Below are positions 8,143 through 23,570 of a stretch of DNA of 64,000 nucleotides, piece by piece (position 1 is the stretch's first letter; the number at the start of each line of letters is the position of its first letter). This DNA is from Shinella pollutisoli (GTDB lineage Bacteria > Pseudomonadota > Alphaproteobacteria > Rhizobiales > Rhizobiaceae): NCBI RefSeq assembly GCF_024609765.1, contig NZ_JANFDG010000012.1:62001-126000 (forward strand), read 5' to 3'. Under the pieces are notes generated by a model. It saw only the letters and a program-made list of their open reading frames with translations. It searched no databases and was not told the origin of the DNA. The translations under genes were made by a program, and so were the position numbers.

Positions 8143-8925
8143 TCAGCGCAGCAATCCCTGCCCGCCGTCGATCCACAGCGGCGTGCCGGTGATGTGGCGC
8201 GCCTTGGAGGAGGAAAGGAACAGGATCGCGTCCGCCACCTCCTCGGCCGTGCCCGCCTTGCCGCCGGTGATCGGGATGTCGCCCTCGGGCCAGACGACGG
8301 GGATTTCCGTCTCCTCCGCGCCGCGCTGCTCGGTGTTGTCGTCGATATCCGTGCCGATGGCGCCCGGGCAGACGGCGTTGACGCGGATGCGGCTCCTGCC
8401 GAGCTCCAGCGCGAGCTGCTGGACCATCGCCACCTGCGCGGCCTTGGTCGCCGCGTAGGCGGTGGCGCCCGGCGTCGTGAAGGTGCGGGTGCCGTTGATC
8501 GAGGAGACGACGACGATCGACCCGCCGCCCGCCCGCTTCAGGAGCGGCACGGCGAGATGCAGCGTGAGATAGGTGCCGCGCAGGTTGACGGCGATCGTCG
8601 CGTCCCATTCGTCGGGGCGGAGATCGTCGATCGGCGCCCAGACGCCGTTGATGCCGGCATTGGCGACGACGATGTCGAGCGCGCCGAAATCGGCCGCAAG
8701 CCGCTCCGTCGCCGCGCGCATCGGCGCCTCCTCGGCCGTGTCGGCGACGAGGACGAGCGCGGTGCCGCCGAGCGCGCGGATCTCCTCGGCCGCCGCCTCC
8801 ACCTCCTCGCCGCTGCGGCTCAGAACGGCGACGCGCGCACCGTGGCGGGCGAACGCGAGCGCCGTCGCCTTTCCGATCCCCGATCCCGCGCCCGTGACGA
8901 GCGCCGCTTTCCCGGCAAACAGCAT
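8143..8925 (-). CDS. SDR family oxidoreductase
   Basis: A 260-residue classical short-chain dehydrogenase. It has the NAD(P) motif TGAGSGIG at residues 11-18, the NAG region (VANAGING), catalytic Ser in VVSSINGT and YAATK (Tyr/Lys). The C-terminal GGQGLLR ending is typical. The ATG at 8925 has AGGAGG upstream. The substrate is unknown. A weak EcfG-like promoter (GGAAC-N18-TT) precedes it, divergent from a strong one serving the 9073 operon. Confidence 0.88.
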   Translation of the reverse strand: MLFAGKAALVTGAGSGIGKATALAFARHGARVAVLSRSGEEVEAAAEEIRALGGTALVLVADTAEEAPMRAATERLAADFGALDIVVANAGINGVWAPIDDLRPDEWDATIAVNLRGTYLTLHLAVPLLKRAGGGSIVVVSSINGTRTFTTPGATAYAATKAAQVAMVQQLALELGRSRIRVNAVCPGAIGTDIDDNTEQRGAEETEIPVVWPEGDIPITGGKAGTAEEVADAILFLSSSKARHITGTPLWIDGGQGLLR

Positions 8926-8970
8926 GAAACCCTCCTGGCTGAGGCGACCGTCGCGGCGCCGACCGTCAAC

Positions 8971-8995
8971 AATGCCCGGCGGGGCAAGCGGTTCC
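8971..8995 (-). promoter_or_regulatory. possible EcfG promoter for the SDR gene
   Basis: Minus strand GGAAC followed by 18 bases and TT. It fits the relaxed RpoE2 consensus (GGAAC-N18/19-TT) but has CATT instead of CGTT. Confidence 0.35.
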
Positions 8996-9012
8996 CGGCG
9001 GACCGATTTGCG

Positions 9013-9037
9013 GGAACCAAGGCCTGCCCGTCGCGTT
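9013..9037 (+). promoter_or_regulatory. EcfG-type general-stress promoter for the 9073-9951 operon
   Basis: Exact GGAAC (9013-9017), 16-base spacer, CGTT (9034-9037). The match is perfect to the consensus of the EcfG/RpoE2 sigma factor of alphaproteobacteria and lies 35 bases upstream of the GTG start. Confidence 0.75.
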
Positions 9038-9072
9038 TCAAGCAGGTACGTCACCAGCCGAGGGAGTCCGCC

Positions 9073-9285
9073 GTGCGCCAGAACCAGAAGAAGCAGAAGC
9101 CGCTTTCCCGCAAGACCGCCGCCGCATCGGAGCCCGGCACGAGAAACCGGCGCCGGCGCAACGCCTGGGAGTCGCGGGTGATCGTGCCGCAGCAGGTCGA
9201 CCTCCCGCTCACGGATTCGCGCCCGGAAGAGGTCGCCGTTCCGGCCGCGCCGAACGGGCGCAGCCTGATCGACGGCCGGCTTTGA
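9073..9285 (+). CDS. small basic hypothetical protein, 70 aa (GTG start)
   Basis: Begins at a GTG with AGGGAG six bases upstream. The N-terminal third is very basic (RQNQKKQKPLSRK, TRNRRRRN), followed by an acidic/hydrophobic tail. No family is recognised. It is first in an operon with the CBS protein (13 bp downstream) and DUF982, under an exact EcfG promoter. It could bind nucleic acid through the arginine/lysine stretch, which is inference from charge only. Confidence 0.65.
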   Translation: MRQNQKKQKPLSRKTAAASEPGTRNRRRRNAWESRVIVPQQVDLPLTDSRPEEVAVPAAPNGRSLIDGRL

Positions 9286-9298
9286 GGGGGCGACCGCC

Positions 9299-9688
9299 AT
9301 GCGCGTGAAGGACGTGATGTCGCCGCAGGTCATCACCATATCGCCGAACGACACGGCGCAGTCGGCCGGCCGGCTGATGCTCGACGCCGAGATCGGCGCC
9401 CTGCCGGTGGAGGTGCCGGGCACCGGCGCCATCGTCGGCATCGTCACGGACCGGGACATCGTCGTCTCGGTCGTCGCCCAGGGCCTCTCCGGCTCGACGG
9501 CGGTCGCCGAGTTCATGACCGTCGCCACCGAGACCTGCCACGAGGACGACGACACTGCCGCCGTCGCCGAGCGCATGCGCGCACTCGGCGTGCGCCGCCT
9601 CGTCGTCGTCGACGGCGAGCGCCGCACGGTCGGCATCGTCACCCTGTCCGACCTGCCCTCCGCCGACACGGAGGGCGGCCGGCCATGA
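9299..9688 (+). CDS. CBS domain protein, 129 aa
   Basis: Two tandem CBS motifs make one Bateman module. The first begins VKDVMSPQVITISPNDTAQ and includes VGIVTDRDIV; the second includes EFMTVATETCHEDD and VGIVTLSDL. Such stand-alone proteins bind adenine nucleotides and are often stress-induced in rhizobia. It lies within the EcfG-driven operon and overlaps the next gene by four bases. Confidence 0.9.
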   Translation: MRVKDVMSPQVITISPNDTAQSAGRLMLDAEIGALPVEVPGTGAIVGIVTDRDIVVSVVAQGLSGSTAVAEFMTVATETCHEDDDTAAVAERMRALGVRRLVVVDGERRTVGIVTLSDLPSADTEGGRP

Positions 9689-9951
9689 CGCCCTACCAGA
9701 CGGATCGGCTGTGGCACGACGCCGTGATCCTGGAGGGCGGGCGGCAGGTGCTGCGCGTCCAGAGCACGCGCGACGCCCTGCTCTGCCTGCGCAACCACTG
9801 GCCGCGCAAGGACGGCGGCGTGCGCAGGGAGGCGATCGACCTCTGCGAACGCGGGCTTGCCGGCGACGACGACCCGGCGCTCGCCCGCGAAGCCTTCATC
9901 GCCGCGGCGGAAGAGGCGGGCTTCCAGGTCAACCTCTGGCCGACCGCCTGA
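9685..9951 (+). CDS. DUF982 domain protein, 88 aa
   Basis: A member of the DUF982 family found almost only in Rhizobiales. The conserved core is WHDAVILEGG, then RDALLCLRNHWPRKDG, then AREAFIAAAEEAGF. The ATG overlaps the CBS stop (ATGA), so translation is coupled. A second DUF982 paralogue lies at 23244-23570. The function of the family is unknown. Confidence 0.85.
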   Translation: MTPYQTDRLWHDAVILEGGRQVLRVQSTRDALLCLRNHWPRKDGGVRREAIDLCERGLAGDDDPALAREAFIAAAEEAGFQVNLWPTA

Positions 9952-12947: not shown

Positions 12948-12972
12948 AACGCGTCGGGCGGCGGAAAGTTCC
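12948..12972 (-). promoter_or_regulatory. EcfG-type general-stress promoter for glgX
   Basis: Minus strand GGAAC (12972-12968), 16 bases, CGTT (12951-12948). It is an exact consensus match 42 bases upstream of the glgX ATG. Confidence 0.7.
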
Positions 12973-17716: not shown

Positions 17717-17741
17717 AACGGTGGTGACGCCGGTTTGTTCC
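17717..17741 (-). promoter_or_regulatory. EcfG-type general-stress promoter for the 72-aa protein gene
   Basis: Minus strand GGAAC (17741-17737), 16 bases, CGTT (17720-17717). Exact consensus, 27 bases upstream of the start. Confidence 0.7.
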
Positions 17742-19370: not shown

Positions 19371-19399
19371 CGACGGCCCCGGCACCGCCGGGGCCGTCG
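19371..19399. terminator. GC-rich hairpin between convergent genes
   Basis: CGACGGCCCCGGC, three-base loop, GCCGGGGCCGTCG: a 13-bp perfect stem. It has no T run, so intrinsic termination is uncertain. It sits between the stops of the 18992 gene and the ATP-grasp gene. Confidence 0.5.
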
Positions 19400-19402
19400 T
19401 CG

Positions 19403-20449
19403 TCAGAGCGTGGCGAGCCGGCTGTTGGAGAGACGGCCGCCATAGGCGTCGCGGATCGCGATCTTGTCCTCCAGCGCGGCGATCACGCTGTCGGAGAAAT
19501 TGGTGCCGTAGAGCTGCGACAGGTTGCCGAGCCCGCCGGGCGTGAAGACGTTGATCTCGAGGATCTTCTCGCCGACGATGTCGAGCCCGACCAGGAACAT
19601 GCCGTCCTCGACCAGCTTCGGCCGCACCGCCTCGACGATGGAAAGCATCGCCGGCGTCACCTCCACGGCCGCCGGGCCGCCGCCCACGTGCACGTTGGAG
19701 CGGATCTCGCCCTCGGCCGGCACGCGGCGGAAGGCGGCGTAGCGGCCGTCGCGCACGAGCGGCCGGCCGTTCATCACGAAGAAGCGGACGTCGCCCTCGC
19801 TCGCCTCGGGAATGAAGCTCTGGGCGATCAGGTAGCCCTCGCCGCTGACGGCCTCGAAGATCTGGTTCAGGTTCTGGTCCTTCGGCGAGGCGATCTTGAA
19901 GACGTTCTTGCCGCCCGAGCCCTGCAGGGGCTTGATGATCGCCCCCTTCTTCTCGCCCTCGATGAAGGCGCGGATCTCCTCGATGTTCTTGGAGACGAGC
20001 GTGGCGGGACGCACGGAGGCCGGGAAATCCTGGAGATAGAGCTTGTTCTGCGCCTGCGCGAGGCCGTCCGGATCGTTGACGACCAGCGTGCCGCGCCGGG
20101 CGGCGAGCCGCCCGAACAGCGTGCCGGCATGGGCCGCCCAGGGCCGCTCGGTGACGTCGAGCGACGGGTCGTTGCGCAGGAACAGCACGTCGATCTCCGC
20201 CATGTCGAACTTCTTCGTCTCGGTGCCGTCGCCCTGCAGGTCCTTGTGCAGCGTCTCCGGCTTCTTGTAGCCCGACGAGGGCAGCACCAGCCCGCGCACC
20301 GAAAGGCCGTCGTCCGGGCTCAGCACGAAGCCGGCCGGCGTAACGTAGCAGATCTCGTGGCCGCGGTTGAGCGCGGCGAGCGCCAGCGCGGTGGTCGTGT
20401 ATTGCGGGGTCTCGTCGGCGATCGAATTGACGAAGAACGCGATGCGCAT
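19403..20449 (-). CDS. GshB-like ATP-grasp ligase
   Basis: A 348-residue protein with the glutathione-synthetase-like N-terminal domain (MRIAFFVNSIADETPQYTTT) and an ATP-grasp core. ATP-binding Lys and glycine loop (IIKPLQGSGGKNVF near residue 190), VRFFVMNG, and the metal-binding EINVFTPGG near residue 305 are visible. It is not necessarily true glutathione synthetase: it is the last gene of an operon with DUF1704 and an N-formylglutamate amidohydrolase-like gene, nine bases after the DUF1704 stop. ATP-grasp ligases join an acid to an amine; the substrate here is unknown. Confidence 0.85.
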   Translation of the reverse strand: MRIAFFVNSIADETPQYTTTALALAALNRGHEICYVTPAGFVLSPDDGLSVRGLVLPSSGYKKPETLHKDLQGDGTETKKFDMAEIDVLFLRNDPSLDVTERPWAAHAGTLFGRLAARRGTLVVNDPDGLAQAQNKLYLQDFPASVRPATLVSKNIEEIRAFIEGEKKGAIIKPLQGSGGKNVFKIASPKDQNLNQIFEAVSGEGYLIAQSFIPEASEGDVRFFVMNGRPLVRDGRYAAFRRVPAEGEIRSNVHVGGGPAAVEVTPAMLSIVEAVRPKLVEDGMFLVGLDIVGEKILEINVFTPGGLGNLSQLYGTNFSDSVIAALEDKIAIRDAYGGRLSNSRLATL

Positions 20450-20458
20450 GCTGGCCTC

Positions 20459-22309
20459 CTAGTTGATCAGATCGATGGGCGAAAGGCCGGTCCGCAACCG
20501 GGCGAGGCGCTCCCCGGCGCCCCTGGCCGAAAGGAATTGCGGCGTCAGCCGCGGCGCCTTCAGGAGGCCGCGCTGGCTCAGCTCCTGCATGACGGCGAAG
20601 TGGCGGGCGGCGATCTTGCCGAGCCAGAACGGCTCCAGCACGCCGCCGCCGCCGAGATGCGCGAGGATCTCCATGAGGCCGCGCAGGTAGATCGCGTCCT
20701 TGGCGAGGCCGCCGCCGCGATGGATGCGCAGCGCCAGGTTGAAGGCCGTCGCCGCCGGAAAGCCGTGGTCGCGCGAAACGAGCCGGAAGGTCTCGACGAA
20801 ATCCGCGCCGTCGAGCATCGCCGCGCAGGCGACCACGCGGGCGGCGATCAGCCTCAGCCGCGCGACCGTCATGCCGCCGGAGAGATATTCGGCGAGCACC
20901 GCCAGCCCCTCCTGCGCCCCCTCGTAGCCGGCAAGGCCCGAGCGGAAGAGCCTGAGGCCGTGGCCCGAGCCGTTGCAGTAGGTGAGGAGATGCACGCCGA
21001 CCTCGTGGCTCAGCAGCGCCTCCACCCGGTCGCGCGCGACCGCGGTCGTGCGGGCGATCAGGAGCCGGTCGTTCGAGACCATGAGGCCGGAGGGCAGGTC
21101 GTCGCGCACCTCGACGGCGGGGGAGAAGGCCTGGGACTCGCCGGCGTAGCGGGCGATCATCGCCTTCGCCCGCCGCTCCACGAAGCGATAGTCGACGGTC
21201 TCGGGCGCGCGCCGGCGCGCGGCGGCGGCCGTCTCTTCCAGGATCCGCCGCGCCGCCGCCTCCAGCCGGTGGTCGACCGAGCCGTAGAGCGCCCGGCTCA
21301 TCTCGACGAAGCGGCTATCCTCGCGGGCGGCGAGCATGGAGAGCTGCAGGTCCAGCTCCTGCTGCTTCTCGCGGTAGAGGCCGGCCAGCACCGGGTCCTC
21401 GAACCGGTCGAGCGCGATCGAGAACAGCGCCTTCTTGCGCGCGGCGACGTCGATCTCCAGCGGCCGGTAGAGGAAGGTCGGCGCGCGGGCGCAGCCGGCC
21501 GCCTCGAATTCCGTCCAGGCGGCATCGGCGTTGATCGGCGTGACGGCGAGCAGGAAGTCGAAGCTCGCGGCGATCTCGTCGATGGCGCGGTCGGCGCGCA
21601 CCACCGCGTCGACGAAGACGCGGCGGCCGAGCGCGCGGTGCGTCGGCGGCGCAAGCGCCGTCTGCGTGCGGGAAAACTGCCCGGCGGCCTTAAGGCCGGC
21701 ATCGACGATATGGGCGACCAGCCGCTCCTGCAATTCCGGATAGATCGCGCGGGACTTCGGCGCCCGGTAGATCGGCGCGAAGCGGATGGTGAGCGTCGGG
21801 AAGGCGGAAAGCCGGCGGGCGAGGCCGGCATGGGGATCGCCGGAAAGCGGATGGCGGACGATGCGCGGCGCGCGATAGCGGGCGTCGATCTTCTCCACCG
21901 CGCCGACGAAGGCCGACAGCGCCGCCTCCGCCGCCCGGTCGGCCGAGGCCGAGACGGCGATCTCGAACGGCGCGAGATAGGGCGCGTCGGCGGCGAGCTG
22001 GTCGCGGGAAAGCTCGCCGAGGTCGATCACCAGGAAAGCGCCGAACTGCTCGCGCATCGCCTCCCCCACCAGCCGGACGACGCCCGCCGCCTCGGCAAGC
22101 GTGCCGGCGAGCAGGTAGGCGGCATTCGCCATCGCCGCCGCGCGGGCGGCCGGTGCTGCCCGGCGGCCGACATGGACGGCGATGAAGGGCAAGGGCCGGT
22201 CGATATAGAGGCGGCCCCGGCGCGCGAGGTCGAGGCGGATCGGCATGCCCTGCGCGAGCGCCTCGGCCACCCGTTCGAGATCGCCCTTCGGCCTGCCGCC
22301 GCCCGTCAC
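20459..22309 (-). CDS. DUF1704 / QEGLA-motif metallopeptidase-like protein
   Basis: A 616-residue member of the family named flavohemoglobin expression-modulating QEGLA motif protein (TIGR02421/DUF1704). A zinc-peptidase helix HEVGVH lies near residue 432, followed by the name-giving QEGLAVLAEY about 30 residues later, whose Glu is the expected third ligand. The same domain in animals forms the tubulin tyrosine carboxypeptidase MATCAP. The start is GTG at 22309, overlapping the TGA of the upstream gene as GTGA. No signal peptide is seen, so a cytosolic carboxypeptidase-like role is inferred. Confidence 0.85.
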   Translation of the reverse strand: MTGGGRPKGDLERVAEALAQGMPIRLDLARRGRLYIDRPLPFIAVHVGRRAAPAARAAAMANAAYLLAGTLAEAAGVVRLVGEAMREQFGAFLVIDLGELSRDQLAADAPYLAPFEIAVSASADRAAEAALSAFVGAVEKIDARYRAPRIVRHPLSGDPHAGLARRLSAFPTLTIRFAPIYRAPKSRAIYPELQERLVAHIVDAGLKAAGQFSRTQTALAPPTHRALGRRVFVDAVVRADRAIDEIAASFDFLLAVTPINADAAWTEFEAAGCARAPTFLYRPLEIDVAARKKALFSIALDRFEDPVLAGLYREKQQELDLQLSMLAAREDSRFVEMSRALYGSVDHRLEAAARRILEETAAAARRRAPETVDYRFVERRAKAMIARYAGESQAFSPAVEVRDDLPSGLMVSNDRLLIARTTAVARDRVEALLSHEVGVHLLTYCNGSGHGLRLFRSGLAGYEGAQEGLAVLAEYLSGGMTVARLRLIAARVVACAAMLDGADFVETFRLVSRDHGFPAATAFNLALRIHRGGGLAKDAIYLRGLMEILAHLGGGGVLEPFWLGKIAARHFAVMQELSQRGLLKAPRLTPQFLSARGAGERLARLRTGLSPIDLIN

Positions 22310-23124
22310 GGCCGTGCCCCCAGCGCCGCTTCCAGCACCGGCAGGCTCGCGCGGATCGCCGCGCGCAGCGCCGCGATCGCCTCGGCGTCGGGCGCGCCGG
22401 TCCATTCGTCCATGAAGATCTTCTTGAACTCCACCGCGATGGCGCAGCCGGTGCGCGGGAAATGCGCGTGCACGAAGCGCGTCTGCTCGCCCTTGCCGGC
22501 GAAGGCGACGTTCTCGCGCACGTCGAGCCGCCGGCCTGGGAAAGGCTGCTCGCGCAGGCAGGCGAGGAAGGCGTCCATCACCGGCGCCCAGTAGGCCCGA
22601 TCCATCGAGAACGTGCCGATATTGATGTCGGGGGCGGCCTCCTGCGGCGTGCAGGCCGCTTCCGCCCCGTCGCGGCGGTGGTTGTAGCTGTGCATGTCGA
22701 GGAGCACGAAGCGCCCGTGCGTCGCCTCGATGTCGGTGAGCATCTGCCGCAGCATGGCGTAATAGGCGTCGTGCTGGCGCAGGACGTCCTCGACCGCTTC
22801 CGCATCCGGCGTCTCGCGCCATACCGTCAGGCCCCAGGCCTGCTCCGGCCTGAGATAGACCGCCCCCTCGCGCGGGCGGTTGAGGTCGACCTCGAAGCGG
22901 GAGCGGTGGACGACGACGCGGTTGGGGATATCGCCGATGAAGCATTCGGTGAACGGGTCCTCCTCGCGCAGGCGCTCCGCCGGGCCGATCGCCATTCCCG
23001 CAGCAAGACCGGATCGCAGCAGATGGCCGTTGTGGATCGCGGTGCCGATGAGCGGCGAGCGCCCGCGGTCCACGGACCACAGGGCATTCGCCATAACACG
23101 ATCGAGAGGCGGTCTGTCTTCCAT
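22306..23124 (-). CDS. N-formylglutamate amidohydrolase family protein
   Basis: A 272-residue zinc hydrolase related to HutG and to peptidase-like amidohydrolases. The core LLDMHSYNHRRDG near residue 145 holds metal ligands, and ERLREEDPFTECFIGD is also family-like. There are no hut genes nearby, so histidine breakdown is unlikely. It heads a three-gene operon with DUF1704 and the ATP-grasp gene. The exact EcfG promoter at 23133-23157 is so close that the ATG at 23124 would be almost leaderless; ATG 23094 (MANALW) is the alternative start. Confidence 0.82.
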   Translation of the reverse strand: MEDRPPLDRVMANALWSVDRGRSPLIGTAIHNGHLLRSGLAAGMAIGPAERLREEDPFTECFIGDIPNRVVVHRSRFEVDLNRPREGAVYLRPEQAWGLTVWRETPDAEAVEDVLRQHDAYYAMLRQMLTDIEATHGRFVLLDMHSYNHRRDGAEAACTPQEAAPDINIGTFSMDRAYWAPVMDAFLACLREQPFPGRRLDVRENVAFAGKGEQTRFVHAHFPRTGCAIAVEFKKIFMDEWTGAPDAEAIAALRAAIRASLPVLEAALGARP

Positions 23125-23132
23125 GGCGCGTT

Positions 23133-23157
23133 AACGTGGAAAGCCGGGCCCGGTTCC
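23133..23157 (-). promoter_or_regulatory. EcfG-type general-stress promoter for the amidohydrolase-DUF1704-ATP-grasp operon
   Basis: Minus strand GGAAC (23157-23153), 16 bases, CGTT (23136-23133). Exact consensus, 8 bases before the annotated ATG. Confidence 0.7.
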
Positions 23158-23243: not shown

Positions 23244-23570
23244 ATGAACATCCCGGATTTGCCCTGGTCCGTCCCGCTGACGATCCGGCTCCAGTGCGGC
23301 CTCGAGCGGACATTCGCGTCGGTCTACGAGGCCCTCGACTTCCTCGAGAACGAATGGCCGATGCGGCGCGGGCAGCGCTACGAGCGCGCCGTCCGCACGT
23401 GCTGGGGCGCGCTGAACAGGTCGACCCCGGCGGCCGTCGCCCGGGAGACCTTCATCGCTGCCTGCCTGGAGGCCGGCATGCCGCTCGTCGCGGCTCCTGC
23501 CATGCCCGCCATGGCGGCCAACGCCTTCGGCCGGCCGATCCCCCACTCGGGGATGCGAGCCGCGGGCTAG
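23244..23570 (+). CDS. DUF982 domain protein, 108 aa
   Basis: Second DUF982 paralogue in the window. The core matches the family (SVYEALDFLENEWP, then AVRTCWGALNRS, then ARETFIAACLEAGM), with a longer Pro/Ala/Met-rich tail. AAAGGAGG lies close upstream of the ATG. It is a single gene divergent from the amidohydrolase operon. Function unknown. Confidence 0.82.
   Translation: MNIPDLPWSVPLTIRLQCGLERTFASVYEALDFLENEWPMRRGQRYERAVRTCWGALNRSTPAAVARETFIAACLEAGMPLVAAPAMPAMAANAFGRPIPHSGMRAAG

Follow-up and report, generated by a model that had tools for sequence, protein, structure and literature searches.

A conserved operon of an amidohydrolase-like protein, a MATCAP-family protein and a GshB-type ligase, preceded by an EcfG-type promoter motif, in Shinella pollutisoli and its relatives

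Analysis of a 64,000-nt stretch of the Shinella pollutisoli genome (contig NZ_JANFDG010000012.1, positions 62,001 to 126,000; hereafter the window) uncovered a minus-strand operon of three genes that, judging from their sequences, probably build and cut peptide-like bonds. They encode a 272-aa protein of the N-formylglutamate amidohydrolase family (FGase; 22306–23124, PF05013), a 616-aa QEGLA/MATCAP protein with a GTG start (20459–22309, PF08014 and TIGR02421), and a 348-aa ATP-grasp ligase of the GshB type (19403–20449, PRK12458/NF009110), referred to here as GshB′. Together these genes, hereafter the trio, constitute one conserved module, which we tentatively read as a system, induced by stress, that makes and breaks a small peptide of the glutamyl or N-acylglutamyl kind. 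The tight coupling claimed in the original prediction, a note made from the DNA sequence without database searches, is borne out: all three frames are intact and closely spaced in the order FGase, QEGLA, GshB′, the FGase stop and QEGLA start share 4 nt (GTGA), and there is a gap of 9 nt between QEGLA and GshB′; an AGGAGG ribosome-binding site overlaps the QEGLA stop.

The QEGLA protein belongs to the MATCAP/TMCP family, as had been predicted, with a PF08014 match of 309.8 bits (cut-off 27; E 3e-92), an intact catalytic motif, and a TIGR02421 match of 363 bits (cut-off 339). Its MATCAP metallo-carboxypeptidase-like domain (about aa 267–606; 20492–21511, minus strand), delimited by PF08014 (with an 8-aa shift because of the GTG start) and by structure match, contains the HExxxH metal-binding motif as HEVGVH (aa 435–440; 20990–21007, minus strand) and the QEGLA motif (aa 466–470; 20900–20914, minus strand), where E467 is the candidate third metal ligand of the (E/Q)EG motif. 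In an alignment of 33 proteins, H435, E436, G438 and H440 are invariant, as are Q466, E467, G468 and A470, and the bacterial QEGLA motif aligns with the EEGLA of human MATCAP. Human MATCAP is also the top PDB match (E 1.4e-7) to an AlphaFold2 model of the protein (mean pLDDT 91.5); M32 carboxypeptidases come next, but at E ~0.01 or worse. The animal enzymes are described as having metallo-carboxypeptidase activity on acidic C-terminal tails and a microtubule-binding insertion (PMC10499314). The QEGLA protein resembles them in its PF08014 domain, HExxxH and (Q/E)EGLA motifs, KDxxYLxG segment and best structural match, and differs from them in being bacterial, in carrying an extra N-terminal FGase-like domain, and in being tied to GshB′ and an FGase.

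This extra N-terminal region spans about 240 residues, and the domain within it (about aa 24–232; 21614–22240, minus strand) is probably a divergent FGase domain. An hhalign comparison of nine alphaproteobacterial N-domains with 28 FGases gave P 7.4e-6 and a probability of 84%, and Foldseek returned weak matches to FGases (2q7s, E 0.19; 2odf, E 0.54). Invariant polar positions are few, and the domain is probably non-catalytic. The closest relatives of the full protein are from Shinella. Its NCBI family name, “flavohemoglobin expression-modulating”, carries no chemical information, and a single TIGR02421 name hides at least two kinds of protein: the family pools the long operon form with shorter forms of 384–467 aa (L163, L164, L146 and others), which score about equally (373–445 bits) yet have neither GshB′ nor FGase nearby.

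The FGase is a clear member of the PF05013 superfamily (88.2 bits, cut-off 28.9; E 1.2e-24), the family that also contains HutG, but lies far below the cut-off of the HutG equivalog TIGR02017 (29.8 vs 278.75 bits). Five further PF05013 genes are present in the same genome, every one of them scoring higher than the operon FGase. Residues H31, E55, R76, N82, R83, H145 and E232 are conserved in all 22 separate trio FGases aligned and, given the carboxypeptidase-like fold, may form the metal and catalytic site. These candidate metal-site residues are shared with the paralogue at L004, the only one of five paralogue rows used in the alignment, since L005–L008 are probably wrong frames.

The ligase is placed in the PRK12458 subfamily at 458.9 bits (cut-off 408) and falls below both glutathione synthase equivalog cut-offs (TIGR01380, 207.8 vs 299.05 bits; NF003573/PRK05246, 213 vs 272 bits). 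E. coli glutathione synthetase is its closest relative by sequence, and its predicted fold is best matched by the same enzyme type (1gsa; TM 0.80/0.88). GshB′ thus shares with GshB the fold and most conserved positions (39 of the 45 jointly conserved) and differs from it in forming a separate subfamily, in scoring below the equivalog cut-offs, one of which is passed by some fused-type relatives, and in an invariant glycine where ordinary GshB has threonine, a change which we take to sit near metal-binding residues. The proposed link of this ATP-grasp protein to tubulin tyrosine ligase (TTL) did not hold up, with no TTL-family domain found at E up to 0.1 among six matched families. On sequence and predicted fold, it falls in the GshB branch of ATP-grasp enzymes, as a divergent paralogue of GshB, and is no TTL relative; we read it as a putative ligase for a glutathione-like acceptor. 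An RSNxHxGG loop, considered as a RimK-like mark, was dropped as such, as three of 17 ordinary GshB rows, including that of this genome, also have it.

In order to assess conservation, a scan of genome contigs was made in which the best 80 of at least 556 relatives were kept, all from Alphaproteobacteria. Together with seven plasmid loci and the window these make up 88 loci, counting one with broken frames (L040) and leaving out two Photobacterium fusion loci, and the order FGase–QEGLA–GshB′ on one strand is found at 88 of 88. Because these loci are near relatives picked by similarity, some of them from one species, a separate sample of 398 Pseudomonadota genomes was also used. PF08014 proteins occur in 47 of these genomes and PRK12458 ligases above cut-off in 14, well separated from the next score (436 vs 241 bits). 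Thirteen of the 14 encode an operon-type QEGLA protein, counting G269, where a cut QEGLA fragment (283-aa frame) lies beside the ligase; in the fourteenth (G205) the ligase begins 48 nt from the contig end. Thirteen long-form loci from 11 genomes were fetched as wider regions (G209:C47, G269 and G205 not among them, and the G209:C132 fragment dropped from the tally). GshB′ adjoins QEGLA in 12 of them, while the FGase is fused to QEGLA in six (both domains Pfam-confirmed in L145) and separate on the same strand in five, at a distance of ~1.4–2 kb in L154 and L158. The trio therefore co-occurs elsewhere in both samples, a check set beforehand by the original prediction.

Neither FGase nor GshB′ was found near the 24 other PF08014 loci fetched (L143, L146, L147 and L159–L179). 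One weak RimK-like match (66 bits) was seen at L164, and no consistent nameable neighbour emerged at L159–L179 with a crude longest-open-reading-frame (ORF) gene caller. A midpoint-rooted tree was built from 37 MATCAP domains, leaving out the 21 rows L159–L179 that do not have the exact motif pattern. One split with 100/100 support parts the fused from the unfused type in it, although long branches meet there; three partnerless proteins of 384–393 aa group with the fused side. L156 (G397) belongs to the window's own class, yet its operon is of the fused type, whose other examples in this analysis come from other classes; this suggests horizontal transfer. Among the 88 alphaproteobacterial loci the trio is flanked by many different genes, with the commonest neighbour family present at 25 of the 88, counting either side. 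No conserved candidate substrate or target gene was seen beside it, in surveys of ORFs of at least 90 aa that are limited by the longest-ORF caller. A phage collection gave no match at E 1e-5.

An exact EcfG-type promoter motif, GGAAC-N16-CGTT, lies upstream of the operon (23157–23133, minus strand), with its −10 element ending 8 nt before the FGase ATG. The same motif has been given for R. etli EcfG1 (PMC3892343), and the RpoE2-responsive S. meliloti rpoE5 promoter combines GGAAC with a CATT −10 (PMC6180224). The 8-nt gap recurs in L029, L033 and L034, all from Shinella, and a leaderless operon mRNA is likely on account of this short, repeated gap. Since strict motifs number 80 across the genome vs 45 for a reversed control (1.8x), a single strict match is weak evidence by itself. 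A strict GGAAC-N16/17-CGTT was found upstream of 15 of the 88 trios (reversed control, 2 of 88), so that a degenerate form, GGAAC-N18/19-TT, was needed; it was picked after the sequences had been inspected. This form occurs within 150 nt of the FGase start at 71 of 88 loci, as 61 distinct strings, compared with four of 88 for the reversed motif and a mean of 1.2 (maximum 5) for shuffles, and it is retained in 27 of 36 clusters at 80% protein identity (reversed control, 1 of 36). It is missing upstream at 17 of the 88 loci. The GGAAC pentamer alone is present at 73 of 88, and its reversal CAAGG is likewise raised, at 30 of 88 (shuffles, 15.6). A further control with other genes gave 45 of 892, but the reversed, shuffled and clustered controls are preferred because the longest-ORF caller takes many antisense ORFs in G+C-rich DNA. 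As expected of an EcfG/RpoE2 regulon member, the operon has a conserved EcfG-type promoter motif upstream, and the trio is probably under general stress control, in agreement with the stress use that had been proposed from the single exact motif. The operon was not found in the main text of the Sinorhizobium papers searched.

To our knowledge, EcfG does not occur outside Alphaproteobacteria. Of 17 loci surveyed, within the limits of the same longest-ORF caller, 10 have a LysR-family gene close to the operon, corresponding to 10 of the 14 long-form loci among them (L025, L031, L144, L149, L150, L151, L153, L154, L156 and L157); the one regulator compared with an NCBIfam model, that of L154, is HdfR-like at 198 bits, below the cut-off of 240. 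We take COG3930 to be the QEGLA group. A Vibrio vulnificus gene list places COG3930 and glutathione synthetase on adjacent tags (PMC3091676), and in Photobacterium damselae at low salt, GshB- and QEGLA-annotated genes with neighbouring tags are reported as raised 38.4-fold and 27.5-fold, respectively (PMC10308900). Both gene pairs may be of the PRK12458 type.

On the reading that we tentatively favour, GshB′ would work in the manner of glutathione synthetase, using ATP to activate a short peptide acid at its C-terminal carboxylate and coupling an amino acid there; QEGLA, as a metallo-carboxypeptidase, would take off the C-terminal residue; and FGase would hydrolyse an N-acyl or N-terminal glutamyl amide bond. 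Their joint effect would be to set the level or recycling of a peptide metabolite, such as an osmolyte, thiol or stress peptide, while EcfG is active. A small glutamyl peptide is favoured over a protein tail as substrate because GshB′ is nearest to glutathione synthetase. At L152, where QEGLA has neither GshB′ nor FGase, an AstE_AspA hydrolase gene (8871–9920, minus strand) abuts the QEGLA start; this family cuts N-acyl-glutamate or N-acyl-aspartate, and its presence in the place of FGase fits an acyl-glutamate or acyl-aspartate bond. Several observations weigh against a make-and-break system. A ligase, a carboxypeptidase and an amidohydrolase in one operon would run a futile cycle unless controlled or acting on different compounds. 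FGase was not seen in two of the 13 long-form loci (L152, and L157, whose contig ends), and one of the six fused FGases has lost H145 and E232. QEGLA is patchy, occurring in 13 of 21 genomes of the window's genus and one of 80 other relatives searched, so the module is accessory. The fold of GshB′ is matched second best by RimK, a ligase whose substrate is a protein tail. Finally, GshB′ is the sole high-scoring GshB-like protein in six of the 14 PRK12458 genomes, where a glutamate–cysteine ligase family gene is present, and it narrowly passes the PRK05246 cut-off (276–281 vs 272 bits) in five of six fused-type genomes; both observations would fit plain glutathione synthesis in the genomes concerned.

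These last observations bear on a second account, in which the ligase is a stress-inducible second glutathione synthetase and the two peptidases recycle glutathione or its conjugates. The many positions shared with ordinary GshB agree with it, as do the genomes in which no ordinary GshB passes the cut-off, but the window protein fails both equivalog models, the threonine-to-glycine change is invariant, and an ordinary GshB (at least 450 bits) coexists with GshB′ in eight of the 14 genomes. One of the eight is the genome of the window, which also has a GCS2-family gene. GCS2 or Glu_cys_ligase is present in all 14, which would suit GshB′ as the missing synthetase of the other six; this idea was rejected, as 42 of 48 genomes chosen because they lack a close match to either type of GshB have GCS2 as well (part of a listing, none with a PRK12458 profile match better than ~1e-27), making the link to GshB′ weak and not specific. 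We consider a second glutathione synthetase unlikely, while giving it some weight. A role in scavenging or detoxification, where FGase and QEGLA degrade N-acylated peptides that are foreign or damaged, with GshB′ ligating the products again or tagging them, would suit an operon in which two of three proteins are amide-bond hydrolases and which, like a portable unit, sits beside many different genes; it explains neither the stress promoter nor why the ligase is the most constant QEGLA partner (12 of 13 long-form loci, vs 11 of 13 for FGase), and appears improbable.

The original prediction had instead envisaged a reversible C-terminal modification of a protein, with GshB′ adding an amino acid to the tail and QEGLA removing it, as TTL and MATCAP do on tubulin. 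Points in its favour are the MATCAP-type domain with HExxxH and QEG, the fold similarity of GshB′ to the ribosomal protein tail ligase RimK, the removal of glutamates from tails by animal TMCPs as well (PMC10499314), and a DUF413 gene beside the pair in four loci, two of which, from Photobacterium, encode a very acidic C-terminus. Against it, GshB′ resembles glutathione synthetase more closely than it does RimK or TTL, no conserved target gene was found beside the alphaproteobacterial trio among ORFs of at least 90 aa from the crude caller, and FGase is left without a role; modification of a protein tail is therefore the least probable of these accounts. What survives of the proposal is the gene set, its stress promoter, the MATCAP domain with its catalytic motif and, most of all, the co-occurrence, while the TTL connection falls away, and a reversible ligase and carboxypeptidase pair would more plausibly act on a small glutamyl peptide.

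Known systems offer partial parallels. The glutamate ligase RimK pairs with the protease RimB, and TTL pairs with a carboxypeptidase. Both cycles likewise combine an ATP-grasp ligase with a peptidase, but the operon differs from RimK/RimB in that its peptidase comes from another family than RimB, its ligase is of the GshB type, and an FGase is added. The operon for the osmolyte N-acetylglutaminylglutamine amide (NAGGN) encodes an asparagine synthetase-like enzyme, an ATP-grasp ligase and an M42 peptidase. It is likewise stress-linked, and its ATP-grasp ligase and peptidase likewise centre on a small glutamyl peptide, whereas the asparagine synthetase-like enzyme and M42 peptidase are particular to it. 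No description of the trio was found in the open-access literature (titles and starts of abstracts), subscription journals lying mostly outside the search. The component families are known, but, as far as this search reaches, neither the module nor its fusion form nor the conserved stress promoter seems to have been described.

Through its partnership with GshB′ and FGase, its fusion and its stress promoter, the QEGLA family, otherwise an orphan, becomes part of a three-enzyme pathway whose chemistry can be tested, and the bacterial relatives of an animal tubulin carboxypeptidase gain a biochemical context. Should a product be found, it would be a stress metabolite or modification not described before, shared by many rhizobia and by some marine bacteria. 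More speculatively, and with a low probability in our view, the operon could be the equivalent in bacteria of the cycle that tyrosinates and detyrosinates tubulin: a ligase/carboxypeptidase pair, switched by stress and perhaps predating the divergence of fused and unfused types, would add and remove an amino acid at the C-terminus of a peptide or protein, and the FGase-type hydrolase would reset an N-terminal cap. If so, animal tubulin-tail peptidases and a peptide-conjugate cycle of bacteria would have a common ancestor.

The DUF413 gene lies next to GshB′ in the Photobacterium loci L025 (5559–5963) and L031 (5496–5963), and also in L148 (10011–10646) and L151 (4501–4842). DUF413 proteins are presumably MaoP-like, and their C-termini are strongly acidic in the Photobacterium loci (-DNDLDI in L025 and -DDDIDY in L031). 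The DUF413 protein is a possible substrate, although E. coli MaoP also has an acidic end.

Beyond the last stop codon of the operon, folding predicts a strong hairpin lacking a T-run, a possible terminator (19371–19399, minus strand; 51-nt stretch, −34.5 kcal/mol, z −3.9), which is absent from the list produced by a terminator scan. At the other end, a DUF982 gene is divergent from the operon (23244–23570, plus strand). The window contains four exact EcfG-type motifs, at 9013–9037 (plus), 12948–12972 (minus), 17717–17741 (minus) and 23133–23157 (minus), that is, four in ~14 kb vs about one per 65 kb genome-wide. The motif at 17741 is 26 nt upstream of a 72-aa ORF, and an HWE histidine kinase gene and a DUF892 gene fall within the same stretch, which is perhaps a small general stress island.

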